From Bacteroidota bacterium (GTDB taxonomy: Bacteria > Bacteroidota > Bacteroidia > Bacteroidales > UBA1556): a DNA stretch of 8,872 nucleotides. Below, piece by piece: positions 2 through 8,772 of the stretch (the stretch's first letter is position 1; each line of letters opens with the position of its first letter). The notes under the pieces were generated by a model that was given only the letters and a program-made list of their open reading frames with translations, did no database searches and was not told where the DNA came from. The translations under genes and the position numbers were made by a program. Where the stretch lies: the NCBI GenBank assembly GCA_003648395.1, contig QMPB01000150.1, positions 1 to 8,872 of the forward strand. Direction: 5' to 3'.

Positions 2-3000
2 ACTATTTTTATAAGTATTTCATTAAATGCGCAAGAAAGTGATAGCCTAAATCTTAAGGCATTTATATCTGCACAAGCAAAAGTGGAACTCAGCTTAATT
101 GATACTCTGAGGATAAATGAATATATTGAATGGAGTACTAATAATTATTTAAAAGAGCCTGATTCTGTATTCATGCTAATGAATATCACAGAAAAAAAAG
201 CTACAGATCTTTTACAATACATAAACCAATTCCCAAAATCAGAATCTCCAAATCTTAAAATTATTAATCAATTAGAGTCTTACCTGGCTTCTTCTTATAA
301 AATAAGAGGCTTCATTTTTATCATAAAAAGGGATTTTTCAGAAGGTGAAGCATATTTAGATAAAGGAATTGAACTGTATGAAAAGATTAATGAAACAGGA
401 GGACTGGCTGAATGTATCTTTACTAAGGCAATGGCATTACATATGCAGGGGAAAACCTCCGGTGCATTATTGTATTATAACAAAAGTTTAATCTTTTTTC
501 AAGAGTCAGGAGAAGAGGAACTCATTGCAACAACACATTATTTAATTGGATCATTATATTCCGGGCAGGATAGTATTGCAGAAGCATTACATCACTTTAA
601 GGAGAGTTTATTCACTTATGAAAAGATGGATAACTCAAAAGAAGAATTTAAGGTACTGAAGAATATTGAAGATATATATGAGTATGAGAATGACTTTAAA
701 AATACTTTACTCTACTACAAGAAAGGTCTAGCTTTAAGCAAGGAAACTAATAATCTTGAAGAAGAATCTTCTTATTCATACAAAATTGGTCTACTATATT
801 ATGAATATGCCAAACCAAATGAAGCCATTGAGTATTTTACATTGTGTGCTAAGGTTCGGAATAAAATTGGTGACGAAAAAGGTATTGCTAATTCAAAACT
901 ATATTTGGGAAGAGTATATACTAAGATTGGAGATTATTCTCTTGCAGAGAAGAACATTAATGATGCATTACAAATTAATGTGGCATTAGGAGATTCTATT
1001 GGATGTGCAGCATGTTATGGTAGACTCGGGATACTATTAGTATCACAAGGAGAATATAATTATGCACTGGATAATTTTAATGAAGGACTAAAGATACAGG
1101 AGGTACTAAGGGATACTGTTGAAATAGCTGTCATTTTGAATAATATTGGACTTGTTTATAATTATCAGGGGGATTATGAGAAATCATTGGAATATTACAA
1201 CTTGAGCTTTTTTATGTACACCTCAGTTGGAGATAAAAATGGAGAAGCTACAGTTTTAAACAATATGAGCACTTTATATACTGATCAGGGTAATATTAAC
1301 ATGGCTATAGACAACCTAAACAAAAGCTTGTCTATTCGAAAGAAACTTAATGATAGTCTCGGTATTGCTGATGCATTAAATAACCTTGGGCATATTTATC
1401 AACAAAAAGGAGAAAACGAAAAAGCTTTAGAGAATTTTAATATAAGTTTAAAAATTTATAAGAAGGATTATGACAGGAATAGAATAGCAACAGTATTGAA
1501 TAATATTGGGTCGGTTTTTTCTGATAAAGGTGAGTATAATAAAGCATTAGAATATTATTTTGAAAGCCTTGAAATTCAGTATGATATTAGAGATAAATAT
1601 GGTATTGGAACTTCTTTAAATAATATTGGAAATGTAGAATGGAAACAAGGTGAATATAACAAAGCATTAAATCATTTTATTGAAAGTTTAGAAATAAGAA
1701 AAGAGATAGGAGATAAATCTGGTGTAGCAAGCTCATTGAATAATATCGGTGCAATATATAGTGATATTGGAGATAACACACTTGCTTTAGACTATTACAG
1801 TAGAAGCCTCATTATCAGACAAGAAATTGGCGGCAAACCAGGTATTGCAAACTCACTAGGAAATATTGGCTCAATAAATAAAGAGCAAGGTAACTATTCC
1901 ATTGCCAAAGAGTATTTTATTAAAAGTATGGAAATTAACGAAGACCTTGGAAACAAGGCGGGGATTGCAATGAACCTGCATAGAATAGGAGGTGTTTATT
2001 TCGATCAAGGCAATATATTAGTAGCTGAGGAATATTATACCAGAAGTTTGGCTTTACGAGAAGAGATTGGAGCGAAAGCCTCAATTGCAAATTCGTTAAA
2101 CAGTATAGGTAGAATGTATTCAGATCAAGGTGATTATAAACAAGCTGTTGAGTATTATAATAGATCATTGACAATAAGGAAAGAAATTGGTGATAAATCA
2201 GGTGTGGTAAATAGCTTTAATAATTTGGGAACTGTTTTTATTGATCAAAGTAATTACTCTACGGCTATGGAATATTTATTTGAAGGTCTTGATATTGTAA
2301 ATAAACTTGGAGAAAAAGAAGCTAAAGCTTCTATACTTGGTAACATAGGTCATTGCTATAGTGAACAGGGTAACATTCAAAAAGCGTTAAAATATCACGA
2401 AAAGAGTCTTCTCCTAAATACTGAAATTGGTAATAAAACCGGGATTGCCACAAACTATGCAAATATTGGGGCAATATATAACGAGCAAGGCTTAATTGAT
2501 AAATCATTGGACTATAGTTATAAGGCGCTTAACATTCAAAAAGAAGTAGGTAAAAAATCAGGTGTTGCTACATCACTTAACAATATCGGACTTATATATC
2601 AGAATAATGGAGATGTGGAAAAAGCTATCAATTATTATGAAGAAAGCATGAAAACCCATCAAGAACTTGGTGAAAAGTCAGGAATTGCAACTTCTTATGG
2701 GAATATGGCCTCGTTGTATTCAGATCAAGGAGAAGATAATAAAGCAATTAGGTTTTTCAAAAAAGGCTTAGATATTAATGACAGTATAGGAGATATAGCT
2801 AGCAGTGCAATCGCATTGAATAATATCGGAACAGTGTATTTTCATATGGATAATGATAGTTTAGCATTAAAGTATTTTAAAAAGAGCTTGAATCTTCACG
2901 ATAGCATAGGCAATAAACCCGGAGTTGCTACAACACTTGGAAATATTGGATTAATATATAGCAATAAAGATGATTATTCATTGGCAGAGCGATATTATAA

Positions 3001-4975
3001 AGATGCATTAAAGATTAACAAGGATATAGATAATAAAAGTGGAGTTAGTACAAATCTCTTTAATCTGGGAATGCTAATGTGGGAACAGAAGAAATTCAAG
3101 AAATTTAAAAACTATGCTCATAAAGTGTATGAAAATAGTTTGGAGTTGGGTTATCCGTATCTATATCAGCATTCACTTTTTCTGATGAGAATATTGTATC
3201 TGGAGCAGAGCAAATATGAGCTTGCAGATAGTATGGTTATTGAGTTTATTGGTATTGACAATAGTTCCATTCAGAATAATTTTGCTACACTTTCTGAAAA
3301 TGGTAAAAAGCAATTTATCAAAACCGTTTCTTCGAATTTTTCAGACTTTAATTCCTATGCTTTATACAGAAATAATCAAAATCCATTTTTAACTTCTTAT
3401 GTATATGATAATACATTAGCAAATAAAGGCATTCTGCTAAAATCAACAAAGGCAATGCAAACGGCTGTACTTAGTTCAAATGATACTATATTGGTAAATA
3501 ACTATTGGGACTGGATTTCAATAAAAAGGCAAATTGCCTATAATTACAGTAAAGGCAAGGATGTGGATTCTTTGGAAGCCATATCTAACGATATTGAGAA
3601 AGAATTAGTTAGAAGATCTAGCACTTTTTCCACCTATACAAATTCAACACAAAGTGGCTGGGAGGATGTACAAAGTAACTTAAAAGAGAATGAAGCTGCG
3701 ATAGAATTTGTTCATTTTGGATTTGTTGACTATGCAAAAATGAAATATAGAGAGTTCTCAGATACAACCTATTACTGTGCCCTGCTATTAAAACCCAATA
3801 GCAGTTGCCCTGAGATGATCCCGCTTTTTACCGAAAGTGAGTATAATAATTGTATAAACTACTCAAATAACTTAAGCAGTTCTAATTTAGTTGCTCAACT
3901 TTATGGAGAAAAGAGAGGAGCAAGTGTACTAACATCTGGCAGTGCACATACAAATTATGCTGATTCGCTGTATTCTCTTATATGGAGCAAGATAGATCCA
4001 TATTTAGAAGGTGTGGAAACCATTTATTATTCACCATCTGGTTTATTGCACAATATTTCATTTTCTGCCATCCCATACAACGACAACCTGTTATTGTCAG
4101 ATAAATACGAATTGGTTTACATGGCATCAACAGGAAACCTTGTTACAAGAAAACCTGATAAGGATATCAGCAAGTTCAATATTGCTTTATATGGCGGTCT
4201 TAACTATGATACTGATACAATTGCCATGCTAGCAAATGCAAACAATTACAATATTGATAACCTACTGGCAAACAGAAGTCTTACAGTAAATGATTCAATA
4301 AGAGGTGGTACATGGAACTACTTACAAGGAACACTGGATGAATCTGAAAACATAAAATCCTTGTTTGATAATAATAACATCAATACAAACCTATATACTG
4401 CAAGCTATGGAGTTGAAGAATCATTCAAATCGCTGGCAGGCAGGAATTCTCCTGAAATCATCCACCTTGCCACCCATGGTTTTTTCTTCCCCGATCCTAA
4501 AAATAAAAAACCTGATGATAGAACGATAAATTTGCAAGACAAAAAGGTTTTTAAAGAATCAGATAATCCCTTAATACGCTCAGGATTAATTATGTCAAGA
4601 GCAAACCTAGCATGGAACGGCGAAACTATACCAGAAGGAATAGATGATGGTATATTAACTGCCTACGAAGTATCAGGCTTAGATTTATACAACACCGAAC
4701 TTGTAGTGCTAAGTGCCTGTGAAACCGGACTGGGCGACATCAAAGGTAGCGAAGGTGTTTATGGACTCCAACGTTCTTTTAAAATGGCAGGTGTTGATTA
4801 TCTTGTAATGAGTCTTTGGCAAGTACCTGATAGAGAAACCTCTGAATTTATGCAGTTGTTCTATCAAAACCTGTTGGCAAAACAAAGTATTGGAATTGCT
4901 TTCCGCAATGCCCAAAAAGTTATGAAAAATAAATATGACCCTTATTATTGGGCTGCGTTTGTTTTAATTGAATAA
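2..4975 (+). CDS. Exported TPR-CHAT protein (caspase-like peptidase with long TPR array), 5'-truncated by window edge
   Basis: The frame is open from base 2, so the true start lies left of the window. A GTG at 83 is only the first internal start codon. The residues before it read TIFISISLNAQESDS, the hydrophobic end and NA|Q cleavage site of a signal peptide, so the protein is predicted to be periplasmic or surface-bound. Numbering from the GTG codon, residues 74-1033 are about 24 TPR units of 40 residues. Residues 1034-1190 are a helical linker, and about 1190-1630 are a CHAT domain (caspase HetF associated with TPRs). The CHAT motifs are HLATHG with the probable catalytic His1465 and SACETG with Cys1546, followed by the usual GVYGLQRSF, SLWQVPD and C-terminal YYWAAFVLIE. 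CHAT domains are caspase/separase-clan cysteine peptidases; the TPRs probably bind partners or substrates. The substrate is unknown. The family call is secure; peptidase activity is inferred from the intact dyad. Confidence 0.93.
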   Translation, partial: TIFISISLNAQESDSLNLKAFISAQAKVELSLIDTLRINEYIEWSTNNYLKEPDSVFMLMNITEKKATDLLQYINQFPKSESPNLKIINQLESYLASSYKIRGFIFIIKRDFSEGEAYLDKGIELYEKINETGGLAECIFTKAMALHMQGKTSGALLYYNKSLIFFQESGEEELIATTHYLIGSLYSGQDSIAEALHHFKESLFTYEKMDNSKEEFKVLKNIEDIYEYENDFKNTLLYYKKGLALSKETNNLEEESSYSYKIGLLYYEYAKPNEAIEYFTLCAKVRNKIGDEKGIANSKLYLGRVYTKIGDYSLAEKNINDALQINVALGDSIGCAACYGRLGILLVSQGEYNYALDNFNEGLKIQEVLRDTVEIAVILNNIGLVYNYQGDYEKSLEYYNLSFFMYTSVGDKNGEATVLNNMSTLYTDQGNINMAIDNLNKSLSIRKKLNDSLGIADALNNLGHIYQQKGENEKALENFNISLKIYKKDYDRNRIATVLNNIGSVFSDKGEYNKALEYYFESLEIQYDIRDKYGIGTSLNNIGNVEWKQGEYNKALNHFIESLEIRKEIGDKSGVASSLNNIGAIYSDIGDNTLALDYYSRSLIIRQEIGGKPGIANSLGNIGSINKEQGNYSIAKEYFIKSMEINEDLGNKAGIAMNLHRIGGVYFDQGNILVAEEYYTRSLALREEIGAKASIANSLNSIGRMYSDQGDYKQAVEYYNRSLTIRKEIGDKSGVVNSFNNLGTVFIDQSNYSTAMEYLFEGLDIVNKLGEKEAKASILGNIGHCYSEQGNIQKALKYHEKSLLLNTEIGNKTGIATNYANIGAIYNEQGLIDKSLDYSYKALNIQKEVGKKSGVATSLNNIGLIYQNNGDVEKAINYYEESMKTHQELGEKSGIATSYGNMASLYSDQGEDNKAIRFFKKGLDINDSIGDIASSAIALNNIGTVYFHMDNDSLALKYFKKSLNLHDSIGNKPGVATTLGNIGLIYSNKDDYSLAERYYKDALKINKDIDNKSGVSTNLFNLGMLMWEQKKFKKFKNYAHKVYENSLELGYPYLYQHSLFLMRILYLEQSKYELADSMVIEFIGIDNSSIQNNFATLSENGKKQFIKTVSSNFSDFNSYALYRNNQNPFLTSYVYDNTLANKGILLKSTKAMQTAVLSSNDTILVNNYWDWISIKRQIAYNYSKGKDVDSLEAISNDIEKELVRRSSTFSTYTNSTQSGWEDVQSNLKENEAAIEFVHFGFVDYAKMKYREFSDTTYYCALLLKPNSSCPEMIPLFTESEYNNCINYSNNLSSSNLVAQLYGEKRGASVLTSGSAHTNYADSLYSLIWSKIDPYLEGVETIYYSPSGLLHNISFSAIPYNDNLLLSDKYELVYMASTGNLVTRKPDKDISKFNIALYGGLNYDTDTIAMLANANNYNIDNLLANRSLTVNDSIRGGTWNYLQGTLDESENIKSLFDNNNINTNLYTASYGVEESFKSLAGRNSPEIIHLATHGFFFPDPKNKKPDDRTINLQDKKVFKESDNPLIRSGLIMSRANLAWNGETIPEGIDDGILTAYEVSGLDLYNTELVVLSACETGLGDIKGSEGVYGLQRSFKMAGVDYLVMSLWQVPDRETSEFMQLFYQNLLAKQSIGIAFRNAQKVMKNKYDPYYWAAFVLIE
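302..3181 (+). repeat. Tandem TPR-coding array, 24 units of 120 bases
   Basis: Within the TPR-CHAT gene, the codons for the N-I-G (or similar) motif recur every 120 bases without a single length change: 782, 902, 1022, 1142, 1262 and so on to 3062. The two least typical units extend back to 302. Each unit has 40 residues: N1 I2 G3, Y6, G10, Y12, A15 L16, Y18 Y19, S22 L23, then a second helix ending near I-G-D-K and a linker G-I-A-x-S-L-N. This is the long TPR form seen in kinesin light chain and Rap/NPR-type proteins. Units 1-4 and 24 are divergent caps. Units 5-23 match the pattern well, yet the DNA copies differ a good deal, so this is an old, length-constrained array and not a recent expansion. 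Confidence 0.9.
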
Positions 4976-5051
4976 TAGTATATTTTACCAAAAATGAACA
5001 TTTGTATTGAAAAATAGTTTTAGTTAAACTAACCTCAAACCCGAAAAAGAA

Positions 5052-5059
5052 TACTTTTG
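5052..5059 (+). promoter_or_regulatory. Candidate Bacteroidota -7 promoter box (TACTTTTG)
   Basis: TACTTTTG fits the TAnnTTTG -7 consensus of Bacteroidota primary sigma-factor promoters and lies 77 bases after the TPR-CHAT stop codon. I do not see a clean TTG-type -33 element at the expected distance, which lowers confidence. Transcription would begin around 5064-5068. That is just before an ATG at 5071 and well upstream of the CHASE2 gene, so it could drive the micro-ORF or short RNA, the CHASE2 and FecR-like pair, or both. Confidence 0.35.
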
Positions 5060-5070
5060 CATTATAGATT

Positions 5071-5181
5071 ATGGCACACAAAAGAAAATGTAGGATCACA
5101 ACAACATGCGAGTGGACCAACCATTTGGTTTTTTTAAAGAGGTATTCTGAAAAGTTGAAAGACAGGATGAAAAGAAAGTGA
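5071..5181 (+). CDS. Possible 36-residue basic micro-protein
   Basis: An ATG at 5071 opens 36 codons ending in TGA at 5179-5181. The peptide starts MAHKRKCRITTTCEW and ends LKDRMKRK. It has 12 Lys/Arg against 3 Asp/Glu, two Cys spaced C-x5-C, and no signal peptide or membrane segment. A TAnnTTTG box ends 11 bases before the ATG, which would give an almost leaderless message. There is no visible ribosome-binding site. I do not recognise a family. Against it: it is short, in an AT-rich gap, and a hairpin with a T run lies inside it (5115-5135), which would end many transcripts before the stop. The same stretch may instead be a short non-coding RNA, or have no function. Confidence 0.22.
   Translation: MAHKRKCRITTTCEWTNHLVFLKRYSEKLKDRMKRK
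5115..5135 (+). terminator. Weak intrinsic-terminator-like hairpin with T run
   Basis: The arms GACCAA (5115-5120) and TTGGTT (5125-5130) pair around a four-base CCAT loop, with one G-U pair at the base, and run directly into T's up to 5135. It could end transcripts from TPR-CHAT, 140 bases after its stop, or a roughly 70-base RNA started from the box at 5052-5059. The stem is short with few G-C pairs, so termination may be partial. If so, some transcription would continue into the CHASE2 gene. Confidence 0.35.
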
Positions 5182-5252
5182 TTAATATAATATAATATGA
5201 AATAAACATTGCAAAGTAATTTATTACACAAAGGAGCATTATTATCTAGATT

Positions 5253-5277
5253 CCTCAGCATCTTGGCGACTTTGCGA
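5253..5277. repeat. Degenerate 8-mer intergenic repeat (CTTTGCGA type)
   Basis: Three imperfect copies lie side by side: CCTCAGCA (5253-5260), a spacer T, CTTGGCGA (5262-5269) and CTTTGCGA (5270-5277), followed by GAAAAC. They end 14 bases before the CHASE2 start codon. From memory, tracts of CTTAGCGTCTTTGCGA type recur between genes in many Bacteroidota. Their function is unknown to me. The gap from 4976 to 5291 otherwise holds only the promoter box, micro-ORF and hairpin listed separately. Confidence 0.45.
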
Positions 5278-5291
5278 GAAAACTAAAAAAT

Positions 5292-6473
5292 ATGAACAAA
5301 AAAATAATATTAGAATCCTTTCTGGCAACAATACTTGTTTTCCTTGTACTTTGGATACTTTTTCTATCCATAAATATATCATTCAAACCATTTAATTATG
5401 TTGTAAAGTCAATAAAACAAATTAATCTGAACGATTTGTATTTTTCAAAGATTGAAAATAATTCAATCGACACAAACATCATTATTATAAATACTGAAAA
5501 TCTTAAAAGAAAAGGAATTTCAGATGTTTTAAACAAAGTAAATGACGGAAATCCTGCTGTTATTGGATTAGATATATTTTTTTATGTGGAAAATAATACT
5601 CCAAATGACTCACTTCTCTTAAGTACACTTCACAACTTAAAGGACAAACTGGTGATGAGTAACATTTACTCTGATGATGGAGTAATAAATTATGATTATT
5701 GGTATTTTGATGAAATAAAAAACGGACATAGTGGAATACTAACAAATAAAAATGGCACTGATGTTGTTCGCGAATTTGAACCTAAAATATATAATAATTA
5801 TGGTAGCGTTAATTCTTTTTCTACTGAAATAGTAGCACGCTTCGATGCGGATGCAGCTAATAATCTTAAACAAAGAAATAATAAAAAAGAAACTATCAAT
5901 TACATAGGTGGCACAAATGCATTTCGTGTAATCAACTATAAAAATTTACTCAGATATTCGAATACAGAGCTTGGTTTTTTAAAGAATAAGATTGTAATGG
6001 TTGGCTTTTGTGGCGGGAATACAATTAACACTGCCGATTTACGTGACATATACTATACACCTGTTGGTTTTGAAATAGCATCAAACCGACCACCAGACAT
6101 GTATGGTATTATTATACATGCTAATATTGTATCAATGATAATAAAAGAGAGCTATATTAACCACAGTCCCAATTGGATAGTGTATCTTATTACAATAATC
6201 CTAACATTCTTGTATGTTACCCTATTTACATATTTTTATGTTGTTAAGCACTTGTATTTTCACATAGCTGCCAAATTAATTCAATTGGTAACATTTATAC
6301 TAATTCTATGGATTGTATTCCTCATATTCTCAAACTATCAGCTTACAATTCCAACTAAATACCTTCTTGTTTCGGTAATACTATCTGTTGATGTATTATA
6401 TTTATATGAAGCATTAGCGGTAATGCTATACAAAAAGTATAAAATTAAAAGCATATTTGTCCACGATCATTAA
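5292..6473 (+). CDS. CHASE2-domain membrane protein without an output domain
   Basis: This 393-residue inner-membrane protein has one N-terminal helix (about 8-29), an extracytoplasmic CHASE2 sensor domain (about 35-285) and three closely spaced C-terminal helices (about 295-317, 325-347, 355-379), the standard CHASE2 layout. CHASE2 signatures seen are AVIGLDIFF (89-97), INYIGG (202-207), LKNKIVMVGF (230-239) followed by a YYTP motif, and YGIIIHANIVSMI (271-283). CHASE2 domains normally sense an unknown signal and drive a cytoplasmic kinase, cyclase or diguanylate cyclase. Here only about 14 residues (YKKYKIKSIFVHDH) follow the last helix, and the stop is followed at once by the next gene. 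The upstream frame is closed at 5247-5249 with no other ATG, so the start is firm. Output must therefore be through another protein, plausibly its neighbours. Confidence 0.88.
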   Translation: MNKKIILESFLATILVFLVLWILFLSINISFKPFNYVVKSIKQINLNDLYFSKIENNSIDTNIIIINTENLKRKGISDVLNKVNDGNPAVIGLDIFFYVENNTPNDSLLLSTLHNLKDKLVMSNIYSDDGVINYDYWYFDEIKNGHSGILTNKNGTDVVREFEPKIYNNYGSVNSFSTEIVARFDADAANNLKQRNNKKETINYIGGTNAFRVINYKNLLRYSNTELGFLKNKIVMVGFCGGNTINTADLRDIYYTPVGFEIASNRPPDMYGIIIHANIVSMIIKESYINHSPNWIVYLITIILTFLYVTLFTYFYVVKHLYFHIAAKLIQLVTFILILWIVFLIFSNYQLTIPTKYLLVSVILSVDVLYLYEALAVMLYKKYKIKSIFVHDH

Positions 6474-6484
6474 CAATTATTATC

Positions 6485-7246
6485 ATGAAATTATACATAC
6501 TCTCAGTACTATTGTTTTGTAGTTTTGTAGTTAACGCTCAATCAAATCAGGAGCTATTATTCTTCAACTCAAATGGTTATGTTCAATTAGTTCGTGAAGA
6601 TACCATAATAAAAAACATACAGGGCGAAAAATTTCTTCAGAATGATTTACTTAGGATTATTAGTGGTGATGCAACCATTATTAACCTAAACAATAAAAGG
6701 GTTACAATCGAGAAATCAGGAAATTACAACTATAATGATGTTCTGGCTCTCATGCAACATACAGAATCATCCCTTTCAAACAAATATTTTGTCTACGTTT
6801 GGGATAAAATGAGTGACCACAAGAAAAACATTAACAAACCTGGTGGTGTTATTCGTGGAGATGGGTTTATAACTTTCCCTATGGATAGTGTTATAATTCT
6901 CTCAGATACAGTTAGATTTTGTATTAATAATGAATCAGGAGGTGATTACCAACTCATTATTAAGTCAGATAATCATAATATAATAAAACAAAATCCCATT
7001 GGAGAAAATATTACACTTAACATCCGTGATATTAATGAAGGTAAACCTGGTAAGTATTATTGGGAGATTAAGATTCCCTTTGGCAAACCACCTGCTAAAA
7101 AATACTTTATCATTCCCAACGAGAAAACTAAAAACGAAATGCTTGCAGAATACAAAAAAAACATTTCGGAATTTTCATCATTTAATATTGAAATGCGAGA
7201 ATTGCTCACAAAAGAATATATAACACAAAATAAAATCTATTTTTAG
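6485..7246 (+). CDS. Secreted FecR-like / beta-sandwich protein of unknown function
   Basis: The 253-residue product starts with a signal peptide (1-18, cut at VVNA|QSN). Residues 30-72 resemble a FecR core: a G-x-V strand, a G-x-x-L turn (QGEKFLQNDLLRI), then GDATIINLNNKRVTI, matching the FecR pattern of G..L..D.I...S.a.i.l....v.l. Residues 133-208 alternate hydrophobic residues in the manner of an Ig-like beta sandwich (SDTVRFCINN, YQLIIKSDN, YYWEIKIPFG). The last 45 residues look helical. The start lies 11 bases after the CHASE2 stop, so the two are almost surely co-transcribed. FecR-domain proteins often sit beside CHASE2 proteins in other phyla, which supports the assignment. No enzyme motif is seen. 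The gene and its export are secure; the FecR likeness is by eye only. Confidence 0.85.
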   Translation: MKLYILSVLLFCSFVVNAQSNQELLFFNSNGYVQLVREDTIIKNIQGEKFLQNDLLRIISGDATIINLNNKRVTIEKSGNYNYNDVLALMQHTESSLSNKYFVYVWDKMSDHKKNINKPGGVIRGDGFITFPMDSVIILSDTVRFCINNESGGDYQLIIKSDNHNIIKQNPIGENITLNIRDINEGKPGKYYWEIKIPFGKPPAKKYFIIPNEKTKNEMLAEYKKNISEFSSFNIEMRELLTKEYITQNKIYF

Positions 7247-7265: not shown

Positions 7266-7409
7266 TAACCTTTCTGGTGGTCATTATAACTATCGGAATA
7301 CTCCTAAAAGGTCGAAACAAAACCGCACTTAATCAATAACTATTTGGATTTTAACACAGTATCTCAGGATGAACCTGCCTGCCGCAGGCATGAAAAACCT
7401 GAAAGGTTA
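7266..7409. repeat. Imperfect inverted repeat in the convergent intergenic gap
   Basis: TAACCTTTCTGG at 7266-7277 and CCTGAAAGGTTA at 7398-7409 are inverted copies with one mismatch in 12. They bracket most of the 167-base gap between the converging FecR-like and thioredoxin genes. A smaller GC-rich hairpin lies near the right arm. The arrangement may fold into a long-range stem ending transcripts from both sides, or be a decayed dispersed element. Confidence 0.45.
7376..7390. terminator. GC-rich hairpin between convergent genes (probable bidirectional terminator or dispersed palindrome)
   Basis: TGCCTG (7376-7381) and CAGGCA (7385-7390) form a six-pair stem with a CCG loop, conspicuously GC-rich in an AT-rich gap. 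CCTGCCTGC-GGCAGGCAGG palindromes occur as dispersed intergenic elements in many Bacteroidota, as far as I recall. The stem lies 129 bases after the FecR-like stop and 23 bases beyond the thioredoxin stop. In the minus direction the thioredoxin message would meet it at once, but no long T run follows in either direction, so the terminator role is only inferred. Confidence 0.45.
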
Positions 7410-7413
7410 CAAT

Positions 7414-7935
7414 CTATTTTAACAAAGCTTCAATATCCTTAGTGCTTTGAGGGTTACTTGGGCGGTTGGCTGTTGCATTAACAACATTTCCCTCCTTGTT
7501 AATTAACACATAACGTGGGATGTACTTAACGTTGAACAGTTGATTATACTCGTTATGTACTTTACCATTTACCAGATAATTCTCACCGGTTATTTTTAAC
7601 TGTGCAACAGCATATTCCCATGCATTTGCGTCCCTGTCAGAAGATAAATAAAGAAACACAACATCTTTACCTTTAAAATGCTTTTGCATATTTAACGAAT
7701 GTGGCATTTCGTTTTTACACGGACGACACCAACTTGCCCAAAAATCAAGATAAATAACTTTACCCTTATACAAACTAATAATGTTTTCGAACGACATTCC
7801 GGCATATTTGGCATCGTTAAGGTTTACCATATTAGTACCTTCTGCATATTTATTCGCAACTGCTGCATCCTGAGCCAATACATTTACTGATATTAATAAT
7901 ACTACTGATAATGCTAATGCTTTAATAATATTCAT
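7414..7935 (-). CDS. Exported thioredoxin-like protein, TlpA/ResA type
   Basis: This 173-residue protein has a signal peptide (1-21, cut at NVLA|QDA) and a thioredoxin fold from about residue 35. The active site is FWASWCRPCKNEMP with Cys70 and Cys73, and the cis-proline loop is YIPRYVLINKEG with Pro140. The WCxPC form followed by EMP is typical of periplasmic reductants of the TlpA/ResA/CcmG group, which reduce disulfides in cytochrome c maturation or in other envelope proteins. The exact substrate cannot be read from sequence, and no maturation genes lie nearby. It is complete but compact. The start is supported by the signal peptide and by a promoter box ending 19 bases upstream. It follows the DUF4159 gene on the same strand, but the 186-base gap with its own promoter suggests separate transcription. 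Confidence 0.93.
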   Translation of the reverse strand: MNIIKALALSVVLLISVNVLAQDAAVANKYAEGTNMVNLNDAKYAGMSFENIISLYKGKVIYLDFWASWCRPCKNEMPHSLNMQKHFKGKDVVFLYLSSDRDANAWEYAVAQLKITGENYLVNGKVHNEYNQLFNVKYIPRYVLINKEGNVVNATANRPSNPQSTKDIEALLK

Positions 7936-8121: not shown

Positions 8122-8772
8122 TTAGTTTTCGAAAACATACTGAACAATATTTGCACCCATCTTTAGAGCTTCCTGACGTTTTTCATTAGAGTCGTTATGT
8201 ACATCTATATCTTCCCAGCCATCACCAAGATCGCACTCATAATCATAAAAACACACTAAACGTCCTTCATAAATTAGCCCAAAACCTTGAGCGTCTTTAT
8301 TATCATGTTCATGAATTTTTGGTAATCCATTGTTAAAATCATATTTTTGATGATAGATAGGATGATTATATGGTAGTTCAACAAATTCGAGACCCGGAAA
8401 AACTTTTTTCATCTCCCTACGAATATATTTATCAAGACCATAATTATCAGATATGTGCAAAAATCCGCCCGAAATTAAATACTTTCTTAAATTTTCGCTT
8501 TCTTCAGGACTAAAAATTATATTACCATGTCCTGTGATATGGGTAAGTGGGAAATTAAACAATTGGCTACTTCCGATATTTATTGCAGGTATATCAGTAC
8601 TAATTTGAGTATGTAGATTATTATTGCAAAACTTAGCCAAGTTTGGTAAAGATGTAGGGTTAGCGTACCAATCGCCACCCCCACTATATTTTAAAAGTGC
8701 TATTTTAACTTCCTGCGAATTAAGTACATTAAATATTACAGAAAACAATAGTAATAATATTATCTTTTTCAT
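8122..8772 (-). CDS. DUF4159 family exported protein
   Basis: The complete 216-residue protein has a signal peptide (1-19, cut at LNS|QEV) and a DUF4159 domain filling the rest. Family-typical motifs in order are KYSGGGDWYANPTSLPNL (28-45), THITGHG (77-83), GGFLHISDNYG (102-112), FPGLEFVELPYNHPIYH (125-141), GRLVCFYDYECDLGDGWED (170-188) and the C-terminal ALKMGANIVQYVFEN. From memory, the domain is grouped with class I glutamine-amidotransferase-like folds, but its function is not established and I see no assured catalytic triad. It acts outside the cytoplasm. The signal peptide supports the ATG at 8772. In the 100 bases from 8773 to the window end I see neither another gene nor a clear promoter. 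Confidence 0.92.
   Translation of the reverse strand: MKKIILLLLFSVIFNVLNSQEVKIALLKYSGGGDWYANPTSLPNLAKFCNNNLHTQISTDIPAINIGSSQLFNFPLTHITGHGNIIFSPEESENLRKYLISGGFLHISDNYGLDKYIRREMKKVFPGLEFVELPYNHPIYHQKYDFNNGLPKIHEHDNKDAQGFGLIYEGRLVCFYDYECDLGDGWEDIDVHNDSNEKRQEALKMGANIVQYVFEN

Follow-up and report, generated by a model that had tools for sequence, protein, structure and literature searches.

A CHASE2 protein and an exported MtxA-like partner form the conserved part of the gene group described here, and some lineages encode an exported peptidase close by, its class varying. We suggest, giving it about an even chance, that the pair is an envelope receptor module and the peptidase its exchangeable output. 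The suggestion is based on the domains, the predicted topology, the conserved adjacency, the interchange of peptidase classes and gene fusions. The group was noticed in 8,872 nucleotides of a Bacteroidota bacterium (contig QMPB01000150.1), called here the window.

The genes of the window

As the sequence-only reading of the window stated, three genes follow each other on the same strand. The CHAT and CHASE2 genes are separated by 316 bp, and the CHASE2 and partner genes by 11 bp. Signal peptides are assigned by a strict home-made rule, which is uncalibrated on known proteins and replaces an earlier, overly permissive rule that 450 of 847 background genes passed. The features are as follows.

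2..4975, + strand: TPR-CHAT gene (1657 aa visible), 5' end cut by the window edge (Pfam TPR_12 and CHAT)
3956..4969, + strand: CHAT domain, residues 1319-1656 (catalytic-type His codon 4475-4477, Cys codon 4718-4720)
5052..5059, + strand: TACTTTTG, weak TAnnTTTG match in the CHAT-CHASE2 gap
5109-5127: terminator-like hairpin in the CHAT-CHASE2 gap (1 found, 0.8 expected)
5292..6473, + strand: gene of a CHASE2-only membrane protein, 393 aa, without a cytosolic output domain (Pfam PF05226, AlphaFold2 model)
5451..6206, + strand: CHASE2 domain match, residues 54-305 (Pfam)
6485..7246, + strand: gene of the secreted partner, 253 aa (ORF)
Partner protein, 253 aa: signal peptide, N-terminal beta domain (about 24-110), Ig-like domain (about 128-211), TPR-like hairpin (about 213-248)
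7414-7935, - strand: TlpA-like thioredoxin gene downstream of the cassette, signal peptide by the strict rule
8122-8772, - strand: DUF4159 protein gene downstream of the cassette, signal peptide by the strict rule

The motif TAnnTTTG, which we take to be the -7 promoter motif of Bacteroidota, matches the window 12 times against a chance expectation of 14.8. Directly before CHASE2 lies TTGGCGACTTTGCGAG (5263-5278), which presumably resembles a common intergenic repeat of Bacteroidota. The palindrome-like element CCTGCCTGCCGCAGGCA (7374-7390) is found between the convergent genes. An Rfam scan of the window at gathering scores returned no RNA features.

ORF 1 consists of many TPRs followed by a C-terminal CHAT domain (PF12770), which scores 184.2 bits against a Pfam cut-off of 24. 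His 1492 in HLATHG and Cys 1573 in LSACETG form a putative catalytic dyad, these two motifs being presumably those of the CHAT His-Cys dyad. The caspase-like TPR-CHAT protein described earlier is thus borne out by the Pfam matches and the motifs; its export, claimed at the same time, we can only infer because the gene start is missing. The visible start, SISLNAQESDS, is compatible with the end of a signal peptide, and judging from these residues ORF 1 probably carries the tail of one there. The strict rule finds a signal peptide in 9 of the 11 best-scoring CHAT relatives of ORF 1 and in 86 of 120 among those listed.

PADLOC places two models on the CHAT protein, TPR and the candidate system PDC-S39 (residues 851-914). 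An anti-phage system was rejected, as both models match the TPR part and CHASE2 and the partner are without any. The TPR-CHAT protein of type III-E CRISPR is encoded with the gRAMP effector and acts in the cytosol; no gRAMP gene is found among the ORFs and Pfam matches of the window, which ends at the CHAT gene. The idea that the CHATs linked to CHASE2 form a single clade was also rejected, the CHAT tree needing at least five changes; we conclude little from this tree, because its rows labelled "other" have no known context and long branches meet in it.

CHASE2 is viewed as the external part of kinases and cyclases. ORF 2 matches CHASE2 with 80.1 bits against a cut-off of 26.3. Its AlphaFold2 model (mean pLDDT 82.7) has helices at residues 2-27, 294-318, 320-349 and 356-383, with one hydrophobic helix before the CHASE2 domain and three after it. 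About ten residues remain after the last helix, and hence the protein has no cytosolic output domain. With no effector domain beyond that helix it is not of the sensor kinase or cyclase type, and the earlier description of a CHASE2 sensor without cytoplasmic output is confirmed. Across the 80 loci introduced below, the tail after the last helix has a median of 25 residues and measures at most 60 in 77 of them. In one order, 107 of the 194 genomes sampled have a CHASE2 match, with no listed frame longer than 540 aa. A Foldseek comparison of the model with the PDB (E<=0.001) gave no match.

The third gene had been read as a secreted FecR-like protein, of which the secretion stands and the FecR identity is not supported. 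The home-made rule assigns a signal peptide to ORF 3, and 47 of 67 partners pass it in its strict form. FecR (PF04773) was rejected in sequence and profile tests, which barely cover the fold of the N-terminal domain: Pfam returns nothing for the protein (P0003) at E<=0.05, FecR is absent from the 25 of 28 families listed for the 69 aligned partner members, and hhalign of the partner family against 20 true FecR domains gives a probability of 5%. A short G-x-V motif is common to the partner and FecR. The partner has the MtxA-like order of signal peptide, Ig-like domain and TPR, and its Ig-like and TPR end resembles MtxA and DUF928. MtxA_C (PF22121) matches 2 of the 69 partner members (best E 0.018) and does not match P0003; DUF928 (PF06051) likewise matches 2 of 69 (best E 7.4e-5). 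Against one DUF928-like protein, hhalign gives 39% over 121 columns. A DUF928 scan of 10 genomes found no match, its controls being silent too, and Foldseek with the partner returned mostly unrelated Ig domains.

The CHASE2-partner pair and nearby peptidases

One genome per species was scanned, which yielded 249 relatives, and the best 80 loci were kept. The partner is at +1 of CHASE2 in 51 of the 80 and within two genes in 57; the two frames in these first loci often overlap or lie a few bases apart, at most about 200. Profiles fixed on the first 80 loci and the window relatives place the partner next to CHASE2 in 45 of 52 further CHASE2-only loci, which include kin of the first 80. CHASE2 and the partner are therefore a conserved pair.

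Two genes of one cluster lie directly before CHASE2 in L045 (8855-9898) and L049 (8815-9828), the former matching the gliding lipoprotein GldB. In Ignavibacteria, CHASE2 proteins of 668-721 aa carry a cytosolic extension (L205-L216), and the partner is adjacent in 8 of 12.

Of the 80 loci, 25 have a peptidase no more than one gene from CHASE2 and 33 no more than two genes away; the further loci give 16 of 52 within two genes. These counts use profiles built from Pfam-identified peptidases and an HExxH family. No peptidase was detected within two genes in 47 of 80 and 36 of 52 CHASE2-only loci, some contigs ending there. The position is uneven. Peptidases occupy 23 of 77 genes at -1 and 2 of 78 at +1, and by distance 41 of 304 genes at 1-2, 23 of 266 at 3-4 and 11 of 365 at 5-8. 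Fisher tests, in which kinship is ignored, give P 4e-7 for distances 1-2 against 5-8, a comparison that leaves out distances 3-4, and P 1e-11 for -1 against 5-8.

Five classes are represented, namely caspase C14, CHAT, trypsin-like, papain-like and HExxH. Beside CHASE2, Pfam identifies caspase C14 in L004, L012, L016 and L051, a trypsin-like enzyme in L006 and CHAT in L007, L056 and L061. L051 also has a papain-like enzyme with a DUF4384 match under the cut-off. Two of the loci with a linked peptidase belong to cultured type strains, Mucilaginibacter limnophilus (L006) and Terrimonas ferruginea (L018). The zinc class is assigned from HExxH and from M48 scores under the Pfam cut-off; the motif is present in 11 of 11 members of this family, found near CHASE2 in Saprospiraceae and their kin. 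Some of the caspases may be inactive, as several lack the Cys motif under the patterns used. The CHAT match of L023 is partial, with both motifs missing, and is still included in the count at +5. Relatives of S9-type peptidases also occur a few genes from CHASE2 (L007 7942-9828, L059 11183-13141, L011 11803-13827, L074 9652-11463) and were not counted as a class.

Neighbourhood was also compared with genomic background, on the assumption of 900 genes per Mb in both cases. With 142 CHAT matches in 40 genomes (182 Mb), three CHATs at ±1 (L007, L056, L061) compare with 0.06 expected in 40 loci; these were hand-picked from the 80 and contain all three, and over 80 loci about 0.13 would be expected (P 3e-4). 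The genomes of L056 and L061 have a single CHAT match each, and it is the gene directly before CHASE2. For caspases, 16 at ±1 of the 80 loci compare with 0.24 expected, an overestimate, since the background (121 caspases) comes from 20 genomes chosen for a near caspase. The CHASE2-peptidase association is likely to be real.

On the CHASE2 tree the presence or absence of a near peptidase requires at least 11 changes; the class label requires at least 13 when each combination is treated as a separate state. The loci with divergent caspases in Chitinophagaceae (L013, L015, L020, L021, L022, L026, L028) form one clade. Among the further loci, a peptidase is found within two genes in 4 of 7 from the order of G001, 10 of 12 from the order of G015, 2 of 15 from the class of G036 and 0 of 18 from the order of G007 (Cytophagales). 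As these shares range from 10/12 to 0/18, the peptidase link is lineage-bound and the pair general. Control CHASE2 proteins with a cytosolic extension have a peptidase in 0 of 12 loci (P 0.03 against all further CHASE2-only loci); within the same class the two groups do not differ significantly (0 of 12 against 2 of 15, P 0.49).

The exact trio, on whose co-occurrence the sequence-only reading depended, recurs but is uncommon, and CHAT as such is an uncommon neighbour of CHASE2. In L056 the CHAT, CHASE2 and partner genes are directly adjacent, with gaps of 5 and 3 bp, and in L174 the order is CHAT-caspase-CHASE2-partner. A CHASE2-partner pair has CHAT at +3 in L016 and at +5 in L071, and in L061 and L007 CHAT adjoins CHASE2 with no partner detected.

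Export, fusions and the proposed wiring

Of the 41 peptidases within two genes of CHASE2, 34 carry a signal peptide by the strict rule, compared with 212 of 711 other locus genes of at least 150 aa. In L072 and L195 the N-terminal domain of the partner is fused to a caspase, directly after CHASE2. In L199 a 750-aa frame joins CHASE2 (1-378) to the partner (415-542 and 556-683), with a further hydrophobic stretch between the two parts. If this extra stretch crosses the membrane, the chain of fusions places the CHASE2 sensor, the partner and the caspase on one membrane side.

We suggest the following mechanism. CHASE2 and the secreted MtxA-like protein would form an envelope receptor module. The exported partner, probably bound to CHASE2, would couple this receptor to an exported peptidase, which would act on the same side of the inner membrane as the receptor. 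The peptidase may be an exchangeable output, TPR-CHAT in the window and a caspase, trypsin-like, papain-like or HExxH enzyme elsewhere. Because of the fusions and the absent cytosolic domain, a signal passed sideways to the peptidase is the simplest reading. As an association, the periplasmic wiring has support; physical contact of the proteins, a flow from receptor to peptidase and the role of the window CHAT as the cognate peptidase are inferred.

As to the last of these points, the TPR-CHAT gene of the window may have no relation to CHASE2 and simply lie next to an ordinary operon of CHASE2 and partner. We regard this as possible though improbable, and it is compatible with the other readings. 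The 316-bp gap, with its possible weak promoter match and the terminator-like hairpin at 5109-5127, fits such a neighbour, as does the large size of the CHAT family to which the window protein belongs (7899 matches). Against it, the strand and order of the window are the same as in L056, L061 and L174, and the nearest genome relatives of the window CHASE2 (44% identity) have caspases within two genes (at +2 in L001, at -1 and -2 in L171). A relative of the partner (P0010) and a relative of the CHAT protein (P0094) are moreover both listed with a 33508-base contig of one source and perhaps share it. P0094 is among the CHAT relatives P0091-P0095, whose identity to the window CHAT is 66-72%.

Two broader alternatives concern the module itself, and we consider each of them unlikely, more so than a chance neighbour in the window. 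The CHASE2-partner pair might be the whole unit, signalling via a separate cytosolic protein or via its own membrane helices; peptidases would then often lie nearby because they and the pair accumulate together in islands of exported stress or conflict genes. In the order of G007 the pair persists with a linked peptidase in 0 of 18 loci, and the 47 first loci without a near peptidase agree with this. The partner-caspase fusions right after CHASE2 in two loci argue against it, as do peptidase-CHASE2 gaps of a few bases (L004, L051, L056, L061 and others) and the peak at -1, which does not resemble a broad island, although positions 3-4 are still raised. Alternatively, the flow might be reversed or static: the peptidase would cleave the partner or CHASE2, or the pair would inhibit or scaffold the peptidase until its release. 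Gene order, fusions and locations fit this equally well, and both CHAT, with its TPRs, and the partner, with its TPR-like end, carry a structure typical of stable binding. However, since the peptidases have several folds, a common role in binding is more likely than a single site at which all of them would cleave the receptor. Published descriptions bear on both alternatives: in other phyla a pair of this kind occurs with a cytosolic kinase (PMC5192318) or cyclase (PMC4439547), both described from Proteobacteria, in favour of the pair as a complete unit, and CHASE2 is a sensory domain in other proteins (PMC13001267), which speaks against a reversed flow.

Known systems and the place of this one

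Several described systems share parts with the receptor-peptidase module that we propose. MtxA pairs with a CHASE2 adenylate cyclase gene in magnetotactic bacteria (PDB 4Z29; PMC4439547). There CHASE2 has a cytosolic cyclase, whereas here it has no effector and exported peptidases are nearby. The BiofilmReg operon of Burkholderia encodes a FecR/LysM protein and a CHASE2 histidine kinase, and thus likewise a secreted partner and a CHASE2 sensor in a single operon; its output is a kinase with a response regulator, and its partner has LysM and FecR, which are not found here (PMC5192318). The caspase::CHASE2 protein of the cyanobacterium Trichodesmium also links a caspase-clan peptidase to CHASE2. 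However, it is one polypeptide with a caspase predicted to be cytoplasmic (PMC3501461, PMC2853523), and the peptidases described here are separate and exported. In EACC2-caspase-CHASE2 proteins, CHASE2 is among several variable domains joined to caspases; these belong to described conflict systems and carry CHASE2 on the same polypeptide (PMC8195603), in contrast to the separate exported peptidases found here.

A plasmid of Tolypothrix sp. PCC 7712 (L083, 868-19441) groups the same kinds of parts: DUF1822, CHAT-like::CHASE2, a DUF928-like gene directly after CHASE2 (DUF928 match under the cut-off), several CHATs, two of which begin with a hydrophobic stretch at the N terminus, and a caspase with DUF4384. 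It differs in that a CHAT-like region, just under the Pfam cut-off, stands N-terminally before the first helix of the CHASE2 protein. An annotated Bernardetia plasmid has CHASE2 without an adjoining peptidase, and the CHAT regions of Nostoc and Leptolyngbya plasmids contain no gene annotated as CHASE2. In open-licence papers we found no description of an output-less CHASE2 wired to an exported peptidase, and nothing on CHASE2 with a CHAT domain, CHASE2 with a periplasmic protease or TPR-CHAT with the periplasm. The combination of CHASE2 without output and exchangeable exported peptidases thus appears to be new.

A widespread CHASE2 without an inside end needs another output, for which exported enzymes of the caspase, CHAT, trypsin-like and papain-like kinds are candidates. 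More tentatively, we suggest a class of receptors whose signal stays outside the cytoplasm, in which CHASE2 and an MtxA-like adaptor would activate exported peptidases of exchangeable fold. It might correspond, in the periplasm, to death or defence signalling of the caspase type and respond to envelope damage or to attack.

If this is true, caspase-clan enzymes of bacteria would work in the periplasm and be controlled by a receptor of their own. What exported caspases do in Bacteroidota, to our knowledge so far unexplained, would become testable via the deletion of one small gene pair. The cell may in this way convert envelope signals into protein cutting outside the cytoplasm.
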